From contig JAOADD010000066.1 in the NCBI GenBank assembly GCA_026417495.1, positions 1 to 35,417 on the forward strand: a stretch of DNA of 35,417 nucleotides, given 5' to 3'. Position 1 is the stretch's first letter; each line of letters starts with the position of its first letter. Position numbers and translations under genes: made by a program. Source of the stretch: Ignavibacteria bacterium (GTDB lineage: Bacteria > Bacteroidota > Ignavibacteria > Tepidaquicellales > Tepidaquicellaceae). Positions 24,466 to 35,417 of this stretch are shown here, piece after piece. A model generated the notes under the pieces. The model was not told where the DNA came from, ran no database searches, and was given only the letters and a program-made list of their open reading frames with translations.

Positions 24466-27400
24466 CTAGTTAATTGAAATCCTAATATTTAAACCACCCT
24501 CATTTGAGGTTCTCGGTATAGTTGTTAATGTGTTTTGTAATGGTTCAGTTCTTATGTATTTGTAAAAGAATTGTAATTGCACTTTCGAACTAAGAGAATA
24601 TTGTATTGTAGGATTTATTGTTGTTACAGTCGAACCACTACCAGGAATTTTTTCAGGTTCTGCAATCCCAACATTGAATCTGTAATCTATAGGTTCATTA
24701 CTATTTTTGCTAATTGTTAATGCGATAGATATATCATTTTTCAAATATAATCCGAAAAGTGGAATATCAAAACCTGCTTTTGAAAAATTAGCAGTAATTG
24801 CAAAATCATTGGTAGTAAGTGATTGAATAAGAGAAGAAGAGGGAGTTAATATTAAATTACGAGATTTGTTCAACCTGAATGAAGCAGTTAAATTCCCTCC
24901 AAATATTTCTTTGAAAGTAATATTTATGCCAATTAATGGATTGAATGATTGAGTAATAGTTTGCTTATCTATAAGTTGAATACCTTTAAAATCAGTTTTT
25001 GATTGTTCATTATATTCTGCTGTAAATGTGTTTTCTAATGTTACTGAAGTTGCAAATTCTGCAAATAATGGAAATGCTTCTAATCCTGAAATTGATAGTG
25101 ACCAATTTGGGAACGGAAATGAAGAAATATCCTTTTTAAAACTACTTGATAAATTTTTAATATTATCATCAGGATTTGTTGAACCTTCATATTTAAATTT
25201 ATCCACATCACCTATTAAGAATATAGAATACCCATCGGTAAGAGTGCTATTCGTAATAGAATTTAATCTATTAACACCATCGGGTGCAGATGTATACTGG
25301 AAACTTTGATTTTTTCCAAAATTCTTCTTAAAAGTTAAATTAACTCTGATTGAAGATGGTATTATAGGTGTGATAATGGCATTTAAAGTTAGAGAGTTAG
25401 TTTGATTATCATTATCATTTATAAGCAAATCGGGAACCCTCTTACCTGGATTTCTATTGAACCCAAGTTGATAGTTAATTGGTGGTCCATATTTTTCATC
25501 TGATAAGAAACTAAACCAAAAATTTGTAAACCCAGGTCTACCCTGAACACCACCATTTGTAACTGTATTGGTTTGAGTAAAATTGATTGAAACATTATCA
25601 GGTATGAAAGACCTAATTAATTTTAATAAATCAATTTGATCATCAGAATTCTTTTGGGATATATTAAGATCTGATTGTGATTGTGCACTTAAAGTTCTTA
25701 TTTTTACTCCATCATCTTCTCCTTTAAATATCTTGAAAATCTCACCTATTTTGAGATTAGCAGTTGTGTTAATATTATTAGAAAACCCAACATTGAAACC
25801 AACATTCCTTGTGGTATTAGGATTAATCCACCCATAAGTAACATTGTAACTTAGATTGATATCAAAGTAATTTTTTAGAATTGGGATATTAAACTTTGGA
25901 TTAAATACAGTTGTCTGCTGAAAGTCAAGGTCCTTACCAAAATTTACAAAAGCATTATTAAAAAATATTTCTTTCAAAATCTCTGATCCAGTTCTTTGGT
26001 ACCTACTACTATCACCATAGGTCTCGAATCCTGACAAATCACTACCAATCTTGATTGTATATTGCCCTGTTAAATCTACAATCCAGTTTTCAATAAATTT
26101 CCAATTAAAGTTAAAACCTCTATTTGACCTAAAATTTCTGCCTATAGGATCGTCAAACAAGAGCTTCCTTTGTCTTGCCTTACTTTGTGAACGAATAAAA
26201 TCTATACTCGCAGAGAAATTATCTGAAAATAATGGGACAAATGGTATAATTGGAATAAATAAATAAATTTTTGCTTCCTTGTATTCCTCACCTAGATTAA
26301 TCAGCTTATTAATATTGAAGTAAAGTGATTTAGAGAACCCAAAATCTGTGTTAAAAATAAGAGCACCATTATAACTAAATTCATATTTATTTCTGAATGT
26401 ATAATCACGGTAAGTTTGATTCATTGAGGAAAAATTCAAAGATAAAGAATTTACAAAAGTCTTAATAAAATAATTATCACTAGGAATATTAATTTTTGCG
26501 CCGTTAATAGAAAACTCATCTCTGACAGTTAATGTTTGTGCTTCTAATTTAATAGCTTCTGATGCTTCTCTTGCTAAATTCTCATTATTTGTAAGATTTA
26601 AAACCTGTCTATATTTTTCTTCTGCTGCTTTTTCTAATTCAATATCTGATCCAGGGAAATATTTTGGATTAATCATATTTTCATAGTGCCTAAAATTAAT
26701 TGGTAAGTTTAAAAAATCTTTCCATTCTTTAGAAATCAACATAGCTATAGCATTGTTAATAATTTTATGAGCATTTAAACTTATACCAATGTCCCATTGA
26801 GTACCTGTCACCCTACTTCCAACTCGCGTCTCTACAGAATGAAAATTAGGATCAACCTTATTGAAATTAATATTAATATTTGCAAGGTCTGCTACTTTAA
26901 TTGATGCATTCAAATTCATAGCATAACCATTATCATCATTTACTTTTAGTACCCTTATCTCGTTAAACCAGACACTCCCAGTCAAAACTGCGTTAGGTCC
27001 TGCTTTATTTTTTTCTACACCCAATTCAAATTGTTTTATAGAACTAAGAGATGGATTCCCTCTGATCCTATAATAAGAACCAGGTGGACCATTGGGCACT
27101 GGTTTTTCTACTATTTCACCAATTGAATCACGAGATATTTTTAAACTTGTCAAATCTGCAAAAACTATTGTTACTTCATTAAATTTATTCCAGGGTTGAC
27201 CTGGTCTGTTATCAGGGTGAATTGGTGCTCGATATTCATAATAATTATTCGAATCCGTTCCGAATCTTATTATCATAGTAGCATCATAAACAACCTCATT
27301 TGTATAATTGAAACTCGGGTCACCATTAACAAACAATTTCAATACCTTATAATTAAATAAATCCAAGGTTTGTGTTTTATAATCTTTAACAACAATCTTT

Positions 27401-30400
27401 CTTTGACCATTAACTAAATTTTTAACTTCAAGTGATAAAGACTGTTCGTTAGATTTTGTATCAACTCCACTTGTATTCCTTATTGTCTGACGTAAGATAT
27501 CTCCCGGAACTGGACTCATATAAATTTGGGAATTTTCTTCAATGCTTACGACAGATATGTTATAAGTTGTATCGCTTTTGTCAGGTTTATACCATTGATT
27601 CCCAACTAAATTAAAATCTACGATTGCTAATTTTACTTCTTGATTAACACCCTTAATCCAAAATCTGACAAACTCAATATTTGTTAATGAAGGATTGTTT
27701 ACAACTTTTGAAAATTCTGATAATGGAATTCTGTATTGAAACCATCCACTACCAGGTTCACCTCTACCAGAAATTCTTTTATTGTTAGTTGTATCTAAAG
27801 AAATTTCATATTCAAAATAAGCATTATAAGTATCAAGACTACTGTTTCTGTTCAAGTCTTCTGTATCTGGTCTATTTCCACCTTCAAAGTATGCATTATT
27901 TTGAGTACCATTGATGATATCAAAATTTATAACCCCTTGAACTTTACTATTATTATCACCCGCTGGGTCTTGATATGGAAAATCATTTAAAGTTAAATTT
28001 GTATCGTTAATTTGATTATATAATGCTAATTCTTCTAAGTCTGTAAGGAAATCCAATCCTATATCTTCATTTGGGTCAAGTTGCCCATTACTGTTTTTAT
28101 CTTCAGTATCTAATATTCCATTTGGTATAGCATCTTCTGATATTTGCCCTAAATCAATGCAAATTTTTGCATTACTAAAAGTTTGATTATTTCCTGTATT
28201 CTCAATTTTCATATTAAACTCTATAAATCCAATATTTTCATTCAACAAGTCAGTCGATGTGGTATTCAGAAACTTCATTATTCCGTTCCAATTTGTGAAT
28301 TTATTCGTTGTATCAAATCCCCTCTGCTTATAATTATATACACCTCTCTGATTTGGATTGAAGATTATATATAATGGAGTTAACCTATCTTGACCAGGTT
28401 GTACATCTCTGGCAGGGTAAACTTTTTTCACTTCAACATCACCTTGAATATTAAACCATCTCATCTTTCCTCGCTTTGCTTGCTTTAATGAATCAGAAAT
28501 TCCAATAGACGAATCAACAGGCAAAGAACTAATTGTCCATTGGGAAAATGTTGTACCTAAAGATATTATTTTCTTTGCTCCTTCCATATCATCTATATAT
28601 GCAACTGCCTCATTATTATCCTGTGGAATACGACTCTTCAATGTGTTCGGATCAGGTGCAATTACAGCAATTTCAGAATTGATAGTAACTGTTGATTCCT
28701 CTTTTGTATTATATCCAGGAAGCAAATTAACAAAATTGGTTAGTGGTTTTAATTTGAATTCACTTTTGAAGTCGAATCCAAAAATAGAATTGTTTGTCGG
28801 TTCTTCTCCAATTCTCACTTTGTCATTTAAGGTCTCTTGCCTTAAATTAACAAATGTGAATCCAAAACTTGTTTTGTCTGTAATTTTATAATTCGCTCTA
28901 GCTCCTATTAATGTTTTTGAAGCTAGAGAGAATAAATCATTTGTTTCATAAGAGATTCTCAACCCTGATGAAGCTAGTGCTTGTGGGTTTCTAATAACAA
29001 CAATTCCCGTAGAATAATCGACAGTGTAATCAACATTTTCAATTAACTTCTGCTCTCTATCATAAATTTCCACGCTTCCTGGAACAACATTAAATCCAAG
29101 ATTGATAGTATTTGTTAAACCTGCTTCTCCCTTCGCAGTACCTTTTATTTTATATCTCGTAGCAATTGGGTAAGTTATAGCTTCGGTTTTTACTTTTGTA
29201 TATAATTGAGAAAAGAAATATGAAGTATCTGCACCTGCTTCACTAATATTATCAAAGAAAGGTCTCAAAGTAGGAAAAATAATATCACCTGACTCTACAT
29301 TTATCGTAAGTCCTGGTATGAAGTCGAAGACATTATCGGGCGGTGGATTTCTAGTTGTCCCTTGATATCTATCCAGTCCAACAATTTGCAATAATTGTTT
29401 TTGACCACTTTGGGTTGGAATAGTAGGAACATCATTATTCTCTTCATTTGTATAATATATATTTAAACTAAAACCATCTTGAATTACTTTTGACACGGGG
29501 AGTCTATATATATTCCGCAATTTCAATTCCCATGCTAATGGTGTTGCTTCAGGATTTAAATTTCTGCATTTCACCATTTTTAGAACGAGGGTGTCACTAT
29601 TCTGCGGTTTATCTTTACTACTTCTGCCAAACTTTTCTCCTTTTTTAGTTCTATAAGTAACTGCTACAACAAAGTTTTCAGGTATATTTACCTTAAGACT
29701 TATGAATCCAGCATAAGGATTTATATAATATTCATTTTGCTCAAGCTTTCTGAATACACCAAAAAATCTTATACCTTGTATTTCATTAGTATTAATTAAT
29801 GTATCATAATTAACAGTTGTTGCTTCGGGTAACATTGTAATCGCTACGGCATATCTTTTTCTACTATCTGTAATATCTGTTTGAACCCAAACTTCAAAAC
29901 TGTTATCACCTGCTAAAACCTGATTGCTATCCGTTTTGGGACTAATTACACCTGTTGTATTATTATAATAATCAAGAAAACTCGATTTGTAAATTGTATC
30001 AAGGAAATAATGATTATCAGAATAGTCAAAAACATTTATTTGAAATTCTTGCGATTGGCTTCCACCAGTAAAATCTTTTCTTTCTCGTTTACTTTTTTTC
30101 TGAGAAAAAACTGATGTTAATGTTAGTGGTCCAAGTTTAAAATCCCCTTTCACTCCAAACAATGCTTGAGATGATTGGATTAAACTTGAACCCGTTTCAA
30201 GCGAAACATTTCCACCTTCAATTTTTTGAATTACTTCATCCTTATAACCAGTATATCTAATCCGCAGTTGATTTTCAAAATCAAAAGTCCTTTGAGTGTT
30301 CCAGTCAGCATCTATTGTTAACTTATCACCCACAGTTCCTTTTGCAGTAATTTGCAAATCCTGTTTGAAATTAATATTTTTTTGATTCCCAAGTAGATTA

Positions 30401-31035
30401 CTTAATATTACCTGTTCGCTTTTAATACTCTGGTATGATGCTGTTAAATCTACAGTACCATTTATTCTTAAATTAATGGTCGGAGGTCCAAAAATAGTTT
30501 CAGTCTTAAAAGGAAGTGGAATTGTTATATCTGTAAATTTCTCAAAAAGTTTTGTTAAATCATTAGTAACCTGCCCTTTAAATTTTTCAGAGACTAAGTT
30601 ATTCATCGAGGTTTTAAAATTTACATCTGAAACTTTCTTTAAATATTCATTAATAGGTAAAATCAAAGGAACATTTATTGGTTCACCAAATAAAGTTTTT
30701 ACAATTGTAACATTACCTAATGAATCAAATTTTACTTCCCTTTTTATTGCAGATGCATCTCCTAAAAGTAGAGGTGATATATTATATTCTATTGGTGTAA
30801 AAAAAGAAAATTCCCTTTCGTAGACAAAGTATTTTATTCTTGCTGTAGAATCCCCTTTGAAAACATTTAAGGTATCTTTTAAAATCTTACTTGTATCTTG
30901 ACCCTTCAGTAAAGAAGTATCCCCTGAAATATACCTTTTACCATCAATATCTCGCCTACCCTGTGAAAAGACATTAACAGACAGGAAAGTAATAAATAGA
31001 ATCAAAAGTAATATTTTAAAATATAGTTTTCTCAA
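24466..31035 (-). CDS. sprA: SprA, outer-membrane translocon of the type IX secretion system
   Basis: The 2189-residue protein starts at TTG 31035 with a signal peptide (MRKLYFKILLLILFITFLSVNVFSQ). An in-frame stop just upstream excludes an ATG. SprA forms a giant 36-strand outer-membrane barrel through which type IX cargo crosses. Recognisable family stretches include PLPFKTETIFGPPTINLRING, ITAKGTVGDKLTIDADWNTQR, VLKMVKCRNLNPEATPLAWELKLRNIYRLP (around 480-510), LLQIVGLDRYQG, IIFNPNQRGVYNYKQRG and VEFVRFWIKG. Two acidic DxNxNGxxD-like loops sit around 970-990 and 1050-1070. The rest is alternating beta strands to a C-terminal strand. The length is near that of F. johnsoniae SprA (about 2400). 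No other secretion gene is in the window. Confidence 0.97.
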   Translation of the reverse strand: MRKLYFKILLLILFITFLSVNVFSQGRRDIDGKRYISGDTSLLKGQDTSKILKDTLNVFKGDSTARIKYFVYEREFSFFTPIEYNISPLLLGDASAIKREVKFDSLGNVTIVKTLFGEPINVPLILPINEYLKKVSDVNFKTSMNNLVSEKFKGQVTNDLTKLFEKFTDITIPLPFKTETIFGPPTINLRINGTVDLTASYQSIKSEQVILSNLLGNQKNINFKQDLQITAKGTVGDKLTIDADWNTQRTFDFENQLRIRYTGYKDEVIQKIEGGNVSLETGSSLIQSSQALFGVKGDFKLGPLTLTSVFSQKKSKRERKDFTGGSQSQEFQINVFDYSDNHYFLDTIYKSSFLDYYNNTTGVISPKTDSNQVLAGDNSFEVWVQTDITDSRKRYAVAITMLPEATTVNYDTLINTNEIQGIRFFGVFRKLEQNEYYINPYAGFISLKVNIPENFVVAVTYRTKKGEKFGRSSKDKPQNSDTLVLKMVKCRNLNPEATPLAWELKLRNIYRLPVSKVIQDGFSLNIYYTNEENNDVPTIPTQSGQKQLLQIVGLDRYQGTTRNPPPDNVFDFIPGLTINVESGDIIFPTLRPFFDNISEAGADTSYFFSQLYTKVKTEAITYPIATRYKIKGTAKGEAGLTNTINLGFNVVPGSVEIYDREQKLIENVDYTVDYSTGIVVIRNPQALASSGLRISYETNDLFSLASKTLIGARANYKITDKTSFGFTFVNLRQETLNDKVRIGEEPTNNSIFGFDFKSEFKLKPLTNFVNLLPGYNTKEESTVTINSEIAVIAPDPNTLKSRIPQDNNEAVAYIDDMEGAKKIISLGTTFSQWTISSLPVDSSIGISDSLKQAKRGKMRWFNIQGDVEVKKVYPARDVQPGQDRLTPLYIIFNPNQRGVYNYKQRGFDTTNKFTNWNGIMKFLNTTSTDLLNENIGFIEFNMKIENTGNNQTFSNAKICIDLGQISEDAIPNGILDTEDKNSNGQLDPNEDIGLDFLTDLEELALYNQINDTNLTLNDFPYQDPAGDNNSKVQGVINFDIINGTQNNAYFEGGNRPDTEDLNRNSSLDTYNAYFEYEISLDTTNNKRISGRGEPGSGWFQYRIPLSEFSKVVNNPSLTNIEFVRFWIKGVNQEVKLAIVDFNLVGNQWYKPDKSDTTYNISVVSIEENSQIYMSPVPGDILRQTIRNTSGVDTKSNEQSLSLEVKNLVNGQRKIVVKDYKTQTLDLFNYKVLKLFVNGDPSFNYTNEVVYDATMIIRFGTDSNNYYEYRAPIHPDNRPGQPWNKFNEVTIVFADLTSLKISRDSIGEIVEKPVPNGPPGSYYRIRGNPSLSSIKQFELGVEKNKAGPNAVLTGSVWFNEIRVLKVNDDNGYAMNLNASIKVADLANININFNKVDPNFHSVETRVGSRVTGTQWDIGISLNAHKIINNAIAMLISKEWKDFLNLPINFRHYENMINPKYFPGSDIELEKAAEEKYRQVLNLTNNENLAREASEAIKLEAQTLTVRDEFSINGAKINIPSDNYFIKTFVNSLSLNFSSMNQTYRDYTFRNKYEFSYNGALIFNTDFGFSKSLYFNINKLINLGEEYKEAKIYLFIPIIPFVPLFSDNFSASIDFIRSQSKARQRKLLFDDPIGRNFRSNRGFNFNWKFIENWIVDLTGQYTIKIGSDLSGFETYGDSSRYQRTGSEILKEIFFNNAFVNFGKDLDFQQTTVFNPKFNIPILKNYFDINLSYNVTYGWINPNTTRNVGFNVGFSNNINTTANLKIGEIFKIFKGEDDGVKIRTLSAQSQSDLNISQKNSDDQIDLLKLIRSFIPDNVSINFTQTNTVTNGGVQGRPGFTNFWFSFLSDEKYGPPINYQLGFNRNPGKRVPDLLINDNDNQTNSLTLNAIITPIIPSSIRVNLTFKKNFGKNQSFQYTSAPDGVNRLNSITNSTLTDGYSIFLIGDVDKFKYEGSTNPDDNIKNLSSSFKKDISSFPFPNWSLSISGLEAFPLFAEFATSVTLENTFTAEYNEQSKTDFKGIQLIDKQTITQSFNPLIGINITFKEIFGGNLTASFRLNKSRNLILTPSSSLIQSLTTNDFAITANFSKAGFDIPLFGLYLKNDISIALTISKNSNEPIDYRFNVGIAEPEKIPGSGSTVTTINPTIQYSLSSKVQLQFFYKYIRTEPLQNTLTTIPRTSNEGGLNIRISIN

Positions 31036-31306
31036 AAAACTATGTCAATTTTACATCAATTTTAATATTTATAATATCGTAAAATTTTATTCTATAATTA
31101 CTCTCCTGTTTTGTTGAAACTTATTGAAAATAAATAATAAAATCAAAATAAAAATAAAATATACGATTTATGCATAAATTGACTTTTAATTATAAAGAAA
31201 ATACATATTTTTATATAAACTTTTATGATATATTTTTGTTTTAAAAATGTAAAAAGGAGGTAATTATAAACAATTTTGACATTATGTATAATTAAAATGT
31301 ACTGCT
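31036..31306 (+). promoter_or_regulatory. Divergent promoter region between sprA and the protease/barrel gene
   Basis: This 271-nt region has the TAnnTTTG-type element TATTTTTG at 31231-31238, the Bacteroidota -7 box, pointing right. The expected TTG 19-20 nt upstream is replaced by TTT, so the match is partial. AAAGGAGG follows at 31253-31260, but the gene's start is TTG 31307, too far away to use it. I see no equivalent box for sprA. Confidence 0.3.
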
Positions 31307-34300
31307 TTGAAAAAATTCATAACATTATTAATATTATTTCTATCGATAAAAACATACTCTCAATTCGAACCTCATCCTGATGTTGATTGGTATACAATCG
31401 AGACAGAAAATTTTAATATAACATTCCATAAGGGGACAGAACGGAGTGCTAAATTAACAGCAAAAATTGCAGAAGAAATTTATGCTCCAGTAACCTCACT
31501 TTATAACTATAAACCAGACACTAAAACAAACATTATCGTTAATGATTTGTCTGATATATCAAATGGGGCAACCGATTTTTTTAATAACAGAATTGAAATA
31601 TTTTCTTCAGCATTAGATTTTGAATTTCGTGGTACTCACAATTGGTTAAGGAATGTTATAACCCACGAATTTACTCATATGGTACAACTTCAAGCATCAA
31701 TGAAGTTCTCAAGAAAGGTACCTGCCATTTACTTACAATGGTTGAATTATGAAAAAGAGAGAAGACCAGATGTTCTATATGGCTATCCAAATGCAATTGT
31801 ATCTTACCCTATTTCAGGTATTAATGTTCCTGCCTGGTTTGCAGAAGGTACTGCACAATATCAAAGGCAACAACTCGCCTATGATAAATGGGATTCTCAA
31901 CGTGATATGATATTAAGAATGTATATTGAAGATAATAATATGCTCTCTTATAACGAAATGGGACAGTTTTCTTCAATTACATCACTTAAAGCAGAATCAA
32001 TATACAATTCTGGATATGCACTTGTAAGATATATTTCTGAGAAATACGGAGAGGATAAATTGAAAGAAATAACAGAGGGTTTGTCACGAGTATTTAACTT
32101 TAGTATGGATGCAGCATTAAAGAAAACAATAGGAAAAAGCGGAGATGAATTGTACAATGAATGGATCGATTATTTGAAGAAAGATTATTCTTTAAGATTA
32201 AAAGGAGTTAAAGAGACAAAAATTTCAGGCACACTTATCGAAACAGAAGGGTTTGCAAACTATTCACCTAAATATTCTCCCGACGGGAAAAAAATAGCAT
32301 ATCTTACTAATAAAGGTTATGATTTTGGATTAACAAGAATTGTTATTTATGATAGAATTACAGACAAAAAAGAAGAACTTGAGTTTCCTGTTTCATATTA
32401 CTCTTGGGCTCCAAATAATGAAAAAATTATTTTCTCTGAAAGAAATATTCCTCCAAAACTTGATGGGATTACTATATTTGATTTATATGAATATGATTTA
32501 AAAACGAAAGAAATTACAAAATTAACAGAAAATAAGAGGGCAACCTCACCATCCTATTCTCCTGATGGTAAACAAATAGTTTATCTTGTTAATAAAGATG
32601 GTACTATAAATATTGAGATAGCTGACAATAAAGCTAAAAATCCAAAGAGATTAACTGATTTCAAAAATGGAGAACAATTGTATAATCCAAAATTTTCTCC
32701 AGATGGTAAATTTATTTTTTTTGAATACTCCCTCGAAGAAGCCAGAAAAATAGCATATATAGATTTGGAGACGAAAAACTTTTATTTTATCCTGAATGAA
32801 CCAAATGTTGATTACAGAAATCCTGAACTTTCAAAAGATGGGAAATATTTATTTTTCTCCTCAGATAAAACTGGAATATTCAACATATATAAATACGATC
32901 TTGAGACAAAAGAGATTAAACAAATCACGAATGTAATTGGAGGTGCATTCATGCCATCAATTGACAGTAATGATAACCTCGTTTATGCCTCTTATTATTC
33001 CAGCGGTTTTAAAATAGAAGAGTTGAAAAATATTAGCGCTTATCAGGATAAAGAAATAAAAAACTACATTCCACCATCAAGACTCGTCGAAAAATACGCT
33101 AATGCAGATTCGACAAATAAAAATGACAAATTCGATTGGAGAAAATTAAGAAATTACGATGACAAAATTTACAAAGATTACACTTACAATAACTACAAAC
33201 CTATTTTCAATCAGCTTTCATTGTTTCCTGTAATTCGATTTGACAATTACACAAAGGACAATAATATTTTAGATGCAATAAAACCTGGCCTATATTTTTA
33301 TTCTGATGAATTAATGACAAGATTCTCAATATTTGGTGGAGCATTTATAAACAGGAAAGCTGAGCGGGATATATTTTTACAATTTACTTATAATAATGGT
33401 TTCCCAATCGGAAAAGATTTTCTAATTAAGAAATTTGGTTTCTCTCCAAAATTAATTTTTGAAGGTTACAATGTCACAAGAAAAGCTGATGCGCAGGTAA
33501 TAGCTGGTTTGGATTCTATAAAAATTGGTGTAGAATATAATCTACTTGCGTTCATACTTGGATTGGAATTTCATTTATTCAATAATGACCATCTATTAAG
33601 ATTTGAATATGGATATAACAAATATCAATCGAATATTGACCCATTCCTCATACCAAGTAGTGGAATTTCTGTAAGAGGTTCTTCACAAGATTATTTTAAA
33701 GCACATAGTTTTTCCTTTATATACAACTACACTTCCTATGCAAGGAATAGAAACTCTGACATTAATCCAATTGGAAGAAAAGTTGATTTAAGATACGATT
33801 ATGAAGCCAGTGATATTAATCCAGAGTATACTGTAGAAAATGATGGTACAATTCGAACACTTTACACACACAATAAATTACATAAACTTGAAATTAAGTG
33901 GTTCGAATCAATTGGACTATTTAAAAATAAACATTCTTTATCATTTAAGTTAAGAGGAGGTACAATTTTTGGTCCAGAAGTAGATAACTTTTACAATCTT
34001 TATGTCTCGGGTATTACAGGTATGAAAGGTTATCCTTTCTTTGCACTTGGTGGAGGAAGAATTGCTTCTATAAATATCACATACAGATTCCCACTAATAG
34101 AAAACCTCGATTTTAGAATTTCTCCAATATACTTTGATAAATTATATTTAGGATTATATACAGATATTGGAGATGCATGGGAAGAAAATAAATTTAAAAT
34201 TAGTGAATTAAAAAAAGACGCTGGCATAGAATTAAGGTTACAAGCATTTTCTTTTTATGCTTTCCCAACAAGTATTTTCTTCAATGCTTCCTACGGATTT

Positions 34301-34393
34301 GACAAATTTACTAAAACCTTCAGGGGTGAAAATATTACCTACGGTAAAGAGTGGAGGTTATATTTTGGTATATTATTCGGATTTGATTTATAA
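31307..34393 (+). CDS. Surface metalloprotease-like / TolB-type propeller / outer-membrane barrel fusion
   Basis: The 1028-residue protein starts at TTG 31307; an in-frame stop at 31289 excludes anything earlier beyond a few codons. After a signal peptide (~1-19) comes a gluzincin-like domain (~25-300) with zinc motif HEFTH (120-124) in NVITHEFTHMVQLQ and the distal Glu ligand in PAWFAEGTAQY (Glu180), as in peptidase MA-like families. A TolB/PD40 propeller (~310-580) follows, with repeats such as YSPKYSPDGKKIAYLTN, PSYSPDGKQIVYLVN, PKFSPDGKFIFFEYS and PELSKDGKYLFFSSD. The C-terminal ~380 residues look like a beta-barrel of the BamA/surface-antigen type, ending in an amphipathic aromatic strand (LYFGILFGFDL). 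Substrate and partners are unknown. It is divergent from sprA. Confidence 0.88.
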   Translation: MKKFITLLILFLSIKTYSQFEPHPDVDWYTIETENFNITFHKGTERSAKLTAKIAEEIYAPVTSLYNYKPDTKTNIIVNDLSDISNGATDFFNNRIEIFSSALDFEFRGTHNWLRNVITHEFTHMVQLQASMKFSRKVPAIYLQWLNYEKERRPDVLYGYPNAIVSYPISGINVPAWFAEGTAQYQRQQLAYDKWDSQRDMILRMYIEDNNMLSYNEMGQFSSITSLKAESIYNSGYALVRYISEKYGEDKLKEITEGLSRVFNFSMDAALKKTIGKSGDELYNEWIDYLKKDYSLRLKGVKETKISGTLIETEGFANYSPKYSPDGKKIAYLTNKGYDFGLTRIVIYDRITDKKEELEFPVSYYSWAPNNEKIIFSERNIPPKLDGITIFDLYEYDLKTKEITKLTENKRATSPSYSPDGKQIVYLVNKDGTINIEIADNKAKNPKRLTDFKNGEQLYNPKFSPDGKFIFFEYSLEEARKIAYIDLETKNFYFILNEPNVDYRNPELSKDGKYLFFSSDKTGIFNIYKYDLETKEIKQITNVIGGAFMPSIDSNDNLVYASYYSSGFKIEELKNISAYQDKEIKNYIPPSRLVEKYANADSTNKNDKFDWRKLRNYDDKIYKDYTYNNYKPIFNQLSLFPVIRFDNYTKDNNILDAIKPGLYFYSDELMTRFSIFGGAFINRKAERDIFLQFTYNNGFPIGKDFLIKKFGFSPKLIFEGYNVTRKADAQVIAGLDSIKIGVEYNLLAFILGLEFHLFNNDHLLRFEYGYNKYQSNIDPFLIPSSGISVRGSSQDYFKAHSFSFIYNYTSYARNRNSDINPIGRKVDLRYDYEASDINPEYTVENDGTIRTLYTHNKLHKLEIKWFESIGLFKNKHSLSFKLRGGTIFGPEVDNFYNLYVSGITGMKGYPFFALGGGRIASINITYRFPLIENLDFRISPIYFDKLYLGLYTDIGDAWEENKFKISELKKDAGIELRLQAFSFYAFPTSIFFNASYGFDKFTKTFRGENITYGKEWRLYFGILFGFDL

Positions 34394-34772: not shown

Positions 34773-35417
34773 ATGAAAAAAGGAGCTCAAAAGAATATCA
34801 CTATTTCCCTTCTAATTTATTTTTTAATATTAGAATCATTGTTAACCTCGATATGTAACAGTCAACCAACAACACCAGGCTGGTTTTATCAACCATTACC
34901 AATACCTACTAATACTCAAATCCATGATCTAAGATTCTTTGACGAAAATACAGGATTAGTTGTAACAGGTACTCCATTCTACATCTTAAGAACTACCAAT
35001 GGTGGATACAATTGGTATCCTGTAATTAATAATCAATATATTTCACTAATAGACATAATTGATAGTAATGCTGTATATGGAGCAGGGGCATTTTCCAATG
35101 GCAATCAACAAATTATTCGTTCTTACAATCGAGGATTAACCTGGGATAGTATAGCGGTAAATGTTATTCAACAAATTTTTGGTATTTCATTTGTAAATCG
35201 TGACACAGGTTGGATAGGAGGCACAGCAAATGGATTACCTTTCGTATGGAGAACTACAAACGGTGGACTGACCTGGACTGTTCAGTCTGATAATACAGGA
35301 TATGGAAAACTGTTCTTCCTCAAACAAAAAGTTAATGGACACTATATTGGCTGGTCGATGAACTACTACGAATTATATAAAACTACTAATTCTGGAATGA
35401 ACTGGACTCAAATACAA
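34773..35417 (+). CDS. Secreted YCF48/BNR-type beta-propeller protein, C-terminus outside window
   Basis: The open frame of 215 codons from ATG 34773 continues past the window end. The first ~30 residues (NITISLLIYFLILESLLTSI after a basic start) are a signal peptide. Four repeats of the YCF48/BNR Asp-box kind are visible: ILRTTNGGYNWYPV (71-84), IIRSYNRGLTWDSI (114-127), VWRTTNGGLTWTV (158-170) and LYKTTNSGMNWTQI (201-214), each preceded by a strand such as FFDENTGLVV or FVNRDTGWIGG. This layout is frequent in proteins that end in a type IX sorting domain; that end is not visible. The ligand or activity is unknown; adhesion or surface glycan binding is an inference. Confidence 0.85.
   Translation, partial: MKKGAQKNITISLLIYFLILESLLTSICNSQPTTPGWFYQPLPIPTNTQIHDLRFFDENTGLVVTGTPFYILRTTNGGYNWYPVINNQYISLIDIIDSNAVYGAGAFSNGNQQIIRSYNRGLTWDSIAVNVIQQIFGISFVNRDTGWIGGTANGLPFVWRTTNGGLTWTVQSDNTGYGKLFFLKQKVNGHYIGWSMNYYELYKTTNSGMNWTQIQ

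Follow-up and report, generated by a model that had tools for sequence, protein, structure and literature searches.

Among the described systems closest to the protein analysed here is the WD40-Omp85 subfamily, which was defined and likened to a fusion of BamA with BamB in the main text of PMC4104836 (Heinz and Lithgow, 2014); the same text discusses surface delivery for PlpD, a patatin-Omp85 protein. Type IX secretion systems (T9SSs) have been characterised best in P. gingivalis and F. johnsoniae (PMC11285876). In a P. gingivalis interactome paper the attachment complex consists of PorU, PorV, PorQ and PorZ, and neither a metalloprotease nor an Omp85 protein is mentioned. In the open-licence literature that we searched, we found neither a metalloprotease nor an Omp85 protein described as belonging to T9SS. 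The WD40-Omp85 class has been known since 2014; a zincin-propeller-Omp85 protein, or its pairing with T9SS and with M6i (the NCBIfam family “T9SS-dependent M6-like inactivated metalloprotease”), is something for which we found no report in that literature. PF00149 is the family of calcineurin-like phosphoesterases (metallophosphoesterases) and not a protease family. Since the main text of PMC4104836 defines a separate Omp85 “metalloprotease” subfamily by PF00149, that label may mislead.

We analysed a window of 35.4 kb (this name is used for the whole stretch of DNA examined) located on contig C13 (the whole genome measures 2.19 Mb), in which an intact open frame at 31307-34393 (forward strand) encodes a protein of 1028 aa predicted to consist of a gluzincin domain, a TolB-type propeller and an Omp85-type barrel; we call it the protease-barrel gene. 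Its closest named relative, by protein, is in the Ignavibacteria MAG isolate Ch128a (83% identity). We consider the gene a good candidate for an overlooked part of T9SS.

Domain composition of the protein

The AlphaFold2 model of the full-length protein, built on a 51-sequence alignment (pLDDT 86.6, pTM 0.85), shows three folded domains. The preliminary description of this DNA had placed a peptidase, a propeller and a barrel on one polypeptide and had proposed structure prediction of the whole protein as a check; all three were predicted. The open frame starts at a TTG (31307), and this start is uncertain: a close relative begins at an ATG further upstream (L044:9940-10010, compared with window 31240-31310), the window counterpart of which runs into a TAA, with the spacing off by one base, so the TTG is the likely start. 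An element, AAAAAGGAGG, lies well upstream of the start and is conserved in the window and in L044. Residues 1-19 (31307..31363, forward strand) are a predicted Sec signal peptide with no lipobox cysteine, judging from the sequence and from a low-confidence N-terminal helix in the model.

The N-terminal domain (about aa 22-303; 31370..32215, forward strand) is a gluzincin-like metallopeptidase domain. The window protein matches Peptidase_MA_2 of Pfam with an E-value of 4.8e-9 (36.8 bits, against a gathering cut-off of 32.4), and all 21 members of A1 match this family at E <= 0.01. The motif HEFTH at aa 120-124 (31664..31678, forward strand) would supply the zinc ligands H120 and H124 and the catalytic E121, and E180 in WFAEG (31844..31846, forward strand) is the presumed third zinc ligand; these positions had been read correctly in the preliminary description, and Pfam, conservation and fold agree with its assignment. 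All 51 aligned relatives (83-43% identity) keep H120, E121, H124 and E180 unchanged, which at the sequence level argues for a functional active site. In the predicted structure HExxH belongs to one helix (113-130) and E180 to another further along the chain (176-185), which is the gluzincin order. Because the propeller and the barrel fill the match list of the full-length model, we modelled aa 22-308, the N-terminal domain, separately with AlphaFold2 (pLDDT 79.5); almost all of the structural matches then listed were gluzincin zinc peptidases, the best being lugdulysin of family M30 (Z 16.4 over 233 residues), and others were M1 aminopeptidases and M9 collagenases, with M61 in the Foldseek list. 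A PDB profile search with the N-terminal domain alone returned no match, so the domain is assigned as a peptidase by its motif, its Pfam match and its fold.

The peptidase domain is followed by a six-bladed TolB-type beta-propeller (about aa 305-575; 32219..33031, forward strand), identified by PD40, by a PDB profile search and by structural comparison: the Pfam match of the window protein to PD40 has an E-value of 2.8e-18, and the best structural matches of the propeller are TolB (Z 25.1, 2.3 A, 239 residues), in keeping with the roughly six PD40 blades counted earlier from the translation. A plain TolB orthologue was considered and rejected, since the protein reaches only 101.3 bits against the TIGR02800 model (equivalog cut-off 343.15) and differs in architecture.

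The C-terminal part (about aa 636-1028; 33212..34390, forward strand) is predicted to form a 16-strand barrel of the Omp85/BamA type, as first proposed from the letters; the strands span about 638-1024. Its best structural match is BamA of D. radiodurans (Z 23.5, 329 residues), and BamA of F. johnsoniae was matched as well; a search with the barrel profile found TamA alone (E 0.92). No barrel family of Pfam matches the window protein itself, and PF01103 (Omp85) was found in 8 of 25 related barrels (best 1.3e-7). The profile check proposed at the outset therefore held for Peptidase_MA_2 and PD40, but for Omp85 only among some of the relatives; the expectation that automated labels would miss the protease and the barrel was correct for the barrel of the window sequence and not for the peptidase, which lies above the Pfam cut-off. 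The alignment also reveals GMKGYPF (34019..34039, forward strand) as the counterpart of the loop-6 motif (V/I)RG(F/Y) known from Omp85 proteins. We saw no POTRA domain (searched with Pfam) and no other translocation element.

Gene neighbourhoods in and beyond the window's clade

In the window the gene lies head-to-head, as had been described, with sprA/sov (24466..31035, reverse strand; TIGR04189, 5.8e-284), which encodes the T9SS outer-membrane translocon. The divergent intergenic region is 271 bp long (31036..31306), and promoter-like sites around it are about as frequent as in shuffled sequences, so they are uninformative. Downstream, a YCF48/BNR-repeat protein starts at 34773 and is cut by the end of the window (34773-35417); similar proteins, which are possible T9SS cargo, also adjoin the gene in several relatives. 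The head-to-head arrangement is kept in 12 loci of the window's clade. The proposed survey of related genomes thus had a divided outcome: the fusion recurs, with its catalytic residues kept in the 51 relatives, but the sprA neighbourhood is confined to this clade, and both the loci and the tree led us to reject it as a general rule. In a sister group (L055-L062) the gene is near genes for cytidine deaminase and thymidine kinase, which flank sprA in the window; neither sprA nor porU-porV-M6i was found beside it there, within the flanking DNA examined.

Elsewhere in the Ignavibacteria the gene belongs to an operon with the order porU-porV-M6i-[protease-barrel gene]-DUF5683; in some cases sprA comes some 4 kb further on. 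All 57 loci with upstream DNA that belong neither to the window's clade nor to its sister group have M6i immediately before the gene, and where the DNA extends far enough M6i is usually preceded in turn by porV and porU; a DUF5683-like gene mostly lies downstream, and in 8 loci the next 4 kb or so also contain lptG-lptF and sprA. For example, the genes of locus L069 match the NCBIfam models of PorU (1.4e-290), PorV (2.5e-81) and M6i (4.6e-259). In the tree each gene arrangement falls on one side of a branch, and the porU-porV-M6i arrangement is the widespread one. The same operon is found in L126, outside the window's class, which suggests that this arrangement is probably the older and that the sprA arrangement of the window's clade was probably derived from it. 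The window genome itself carries porU-porV-M6i on contig C35 without the protease-barrel gene, which adjoins sprA instead.

HExxH is absent from all 48 aligned long M6i ORFs of these loci. The M6i copy in L069, predicted to be displayed at the surface, combines FG-GAP repeats with a T9SS type A sorting domain. Judged by sequence, then, M6i, which is secreted and has an inactive protease fold, accompanies a putative outer-membrane protein whose protease site never varies. The location of M6i invites the suggestion that the barrel might bring the protease and propeller that precede it out onto the cell surface, where the protein would bind M6i, by analogy with PlpD, whose N-terminal enzyme is reported to reach the surface by way of an Omp85-family barrel (as discussed in PMC4104836); the N-terminal domains of Omp85 proteins are, however, normally periplasmic, and with no POTRA or other translocation element seen we regard such display as quite improbable.

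Co-occurrence with M6i across the phylum

Orthologues were searched in 198 genomes of the phylum, in which a clear gap in E-value separates full-length orthologues (<= about 1e-97) from paralogue-level matches (1e-32 or weaker). M6i was searched in 80 of the 198 genomes and afterwards in a second set of 78. Of the 158 genomes sampled, 78 carry the protease-barrel gene together with M6i, 80 carry neither, and none departs from this pattern. The first set contributes 56 genomes with both, 24 with neither and none with one alone (Fisher p 6e-21, a genome-level statistic to which genomes of one phylum contribute as non-independent samples); counted by family, the same set has 17 families with both and 14 with neither (Fisher p 4e-9). 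The second set has 22 genomes with both and 56 with neither, again with 0 exceptions, and includes one split genus, with both genes in G081 and neither in G151. According to the coordinate tables, M6i is immediately upstream of the gene in about 68 of the 78 genomes that have both.

Of 80 genomes tested, 77 have SprA, and a PorV-family protein scores above the cut-off in 79 of 80, nearly all of the pair-less genomes among them; the pattern therefore tracks M6i and not T9SS as such. T9SS genes were found in most of the pair-less genomes that were checked, and the pair-less genomes include those with the highest scores against the SprA family model. A core component would be present wherever T9SS is; many genomes with SprA and PorV lack the gene, so many members of the phylum run T9SS without it and it does not belong to the core. 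In different lineages we do find it genetically linked to T9SS genes, as would be expected of an accessory component. The preliminary description had called a link to T9SS conceivable, and that link has become much stronger, mainly through the porU-porV-M6i operon and the co-occurrence with M6i rather than through sprA. This module would be easy to miss, since T9SS has been studied best in P. gingivalis and F. johnsoniae, and the pair-less genomes include the top SprA scorers.

The presence of SprA and PorV in genomes without the gene also bears on whether the barrel might be a working outer-membrane insertase or assembly factor, folding M6i-associated or T9SS proteins such as PorV while the peptidase clears misfolded client. 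An Omp85-type barrel with a loop-6-like motif and a TolB/BamB-like propeller would suit this role, and Heinz and Lithgow, in the main text of PMC4104836, proposed one resembling a BamA-BamB fusion for WD40-Omp85 proteins; yet the phylum includes genomes that have PorV and SprA but lack the gene, which is thus not needed for their assembly in general, and we consider this role improbable.

Replacement of PorZ/PorQ by M6i and the protease-barrel gene was rejected, since PorZ/PorQ are found in most genomes both with and without the pair. Four genomes of one family (G061, G108, G119, and G171) have M6i and the protease-barrel gene, yet no PorZ match at E 1e-20, and their PorQ is under the cut-off or absent. 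In another genome the C-terminal half of SprA (G079:C7:260525-263974) lies in a 6523-codon open frame, by far the longest SprA frame among those listed.

The window genome contains two paralogues of the same architecture (L128:8389-11208 on contig C9, and L129:5260-8430 on contig C64). Both retain HExxH followed by WF(V/A)EG, and the contig C9 copy matches Omp85 at 6.9e-14. Their neighbours are unrelated to T9SS, so the architecture alone does not imply T9SS. The protein might accordingly be a general quality-control protease of the outer membrane or periplasm, BepA-like and tethered, with its carriage in T9SS operons incidental and M6i a passenger. Its architecture suits a tethered periplasmic protease, and same-architecture paralogues stand beside unrelated genes in the same genome, with paralogue-level matches also in genomes without M6i; but neither an all-or-none co-occurrence with one T9SS cargo nor retention beside porU/porV or sprA is expected of a housekeeping enzyme, and we hold this explanation to be rather unlikely.

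Proposed role and comparison with known systems

We lean, with slightly better than even confidence, towards a T9SS accessory module in which the protein is an outer-membrane-anchored metallopeptidase that binds or processes the secreted pseudoprotease M6i. Sec would export the protein and its C-terminal Omp85-type barrel would insert into the outer membrane, leaving the zinc metallopeptidase and the TolB-type propeller, N-terminal to the barrel, by default in the periplasm as in other Omp85 proteins. The propeller and barrel may then bind M6i at the T9SS exit, while it crosses the outer membrane or once it has done so, with other cargo or PorU/PorV as further possible partners, and the gluzincin peptidase would clip or quality-control the bound partner. 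Our computations show the domain architecture, the unvarying catalytic residues, the linkage in the operon and the co-occurrence with M6i. A shared operon and joint inheritance fall short of proving that the partners interact physically or catalytically; what we infer beyond them is the peptidase activity, the topology, the physical partner, and cleavage as the role. Extending this reading, we suggest more tentatively, as a possibility somewhat short of even, an unrecognised sub-module of T9SS, in which an active outer-membrane-anchored metallopeptidase and its obligate secreted pseudoprotease M6i would provide a second, zinc-dependent step of processing or gatekeeping at the outer membrane, beside the PorU cysteine sortase, in part of the T9SS-bearing lineages of the phylum. 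Two genes that are strictly inherited together and that share the porU-porV operon in many families would amount to a new accessory branch of T9SS. For the WD40-Omp85 proteins, which are poorly understood, the finding supplies a definite setting and a partner that can be tested.

With a PD40 propeller of TolB fold and no POTRA (by Pfam), the protein has the make-up of the WD40-Omp85 subfamily, described in the main text of PMC4104836 as N-terminal TolB-like propeller repeats followed by a POTRA-less Omp85 barrel; that main text mentions neither a metallopeptidase domain nor a T9SS association for the subfamily, unlike what we find here. The six-bladed PD40 propeller fold is common to TolB, whereas the protein here adds a peptidase and a barrel and scores far under the TolB equivalog cut-off. 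It has in common with the Omp85 insertases BamA and TamA the 16-strand barrel fold and a loop-6-like motif, but carries a peptidase and a propeller instead of POTRA domains. Its gene is in the same operon as porU/porV in most relatives, yet the protein is not homologous to the members of the PorU/PorV/PorQ/PorZ attachment complex and is present in only a subset of T9SS-bearing genomes. Finally, it shares with the clan MA gluzincins (lugdulysin M30, M1, and M9) the overall fold and the order of an HExxH helix followed by a Glu-ligand helix, and it differs from them in a long insertion between HExxH and Glu (about 55 residues) and in the fusion of the peptidase to a propeller and an outer-membrane barrel.
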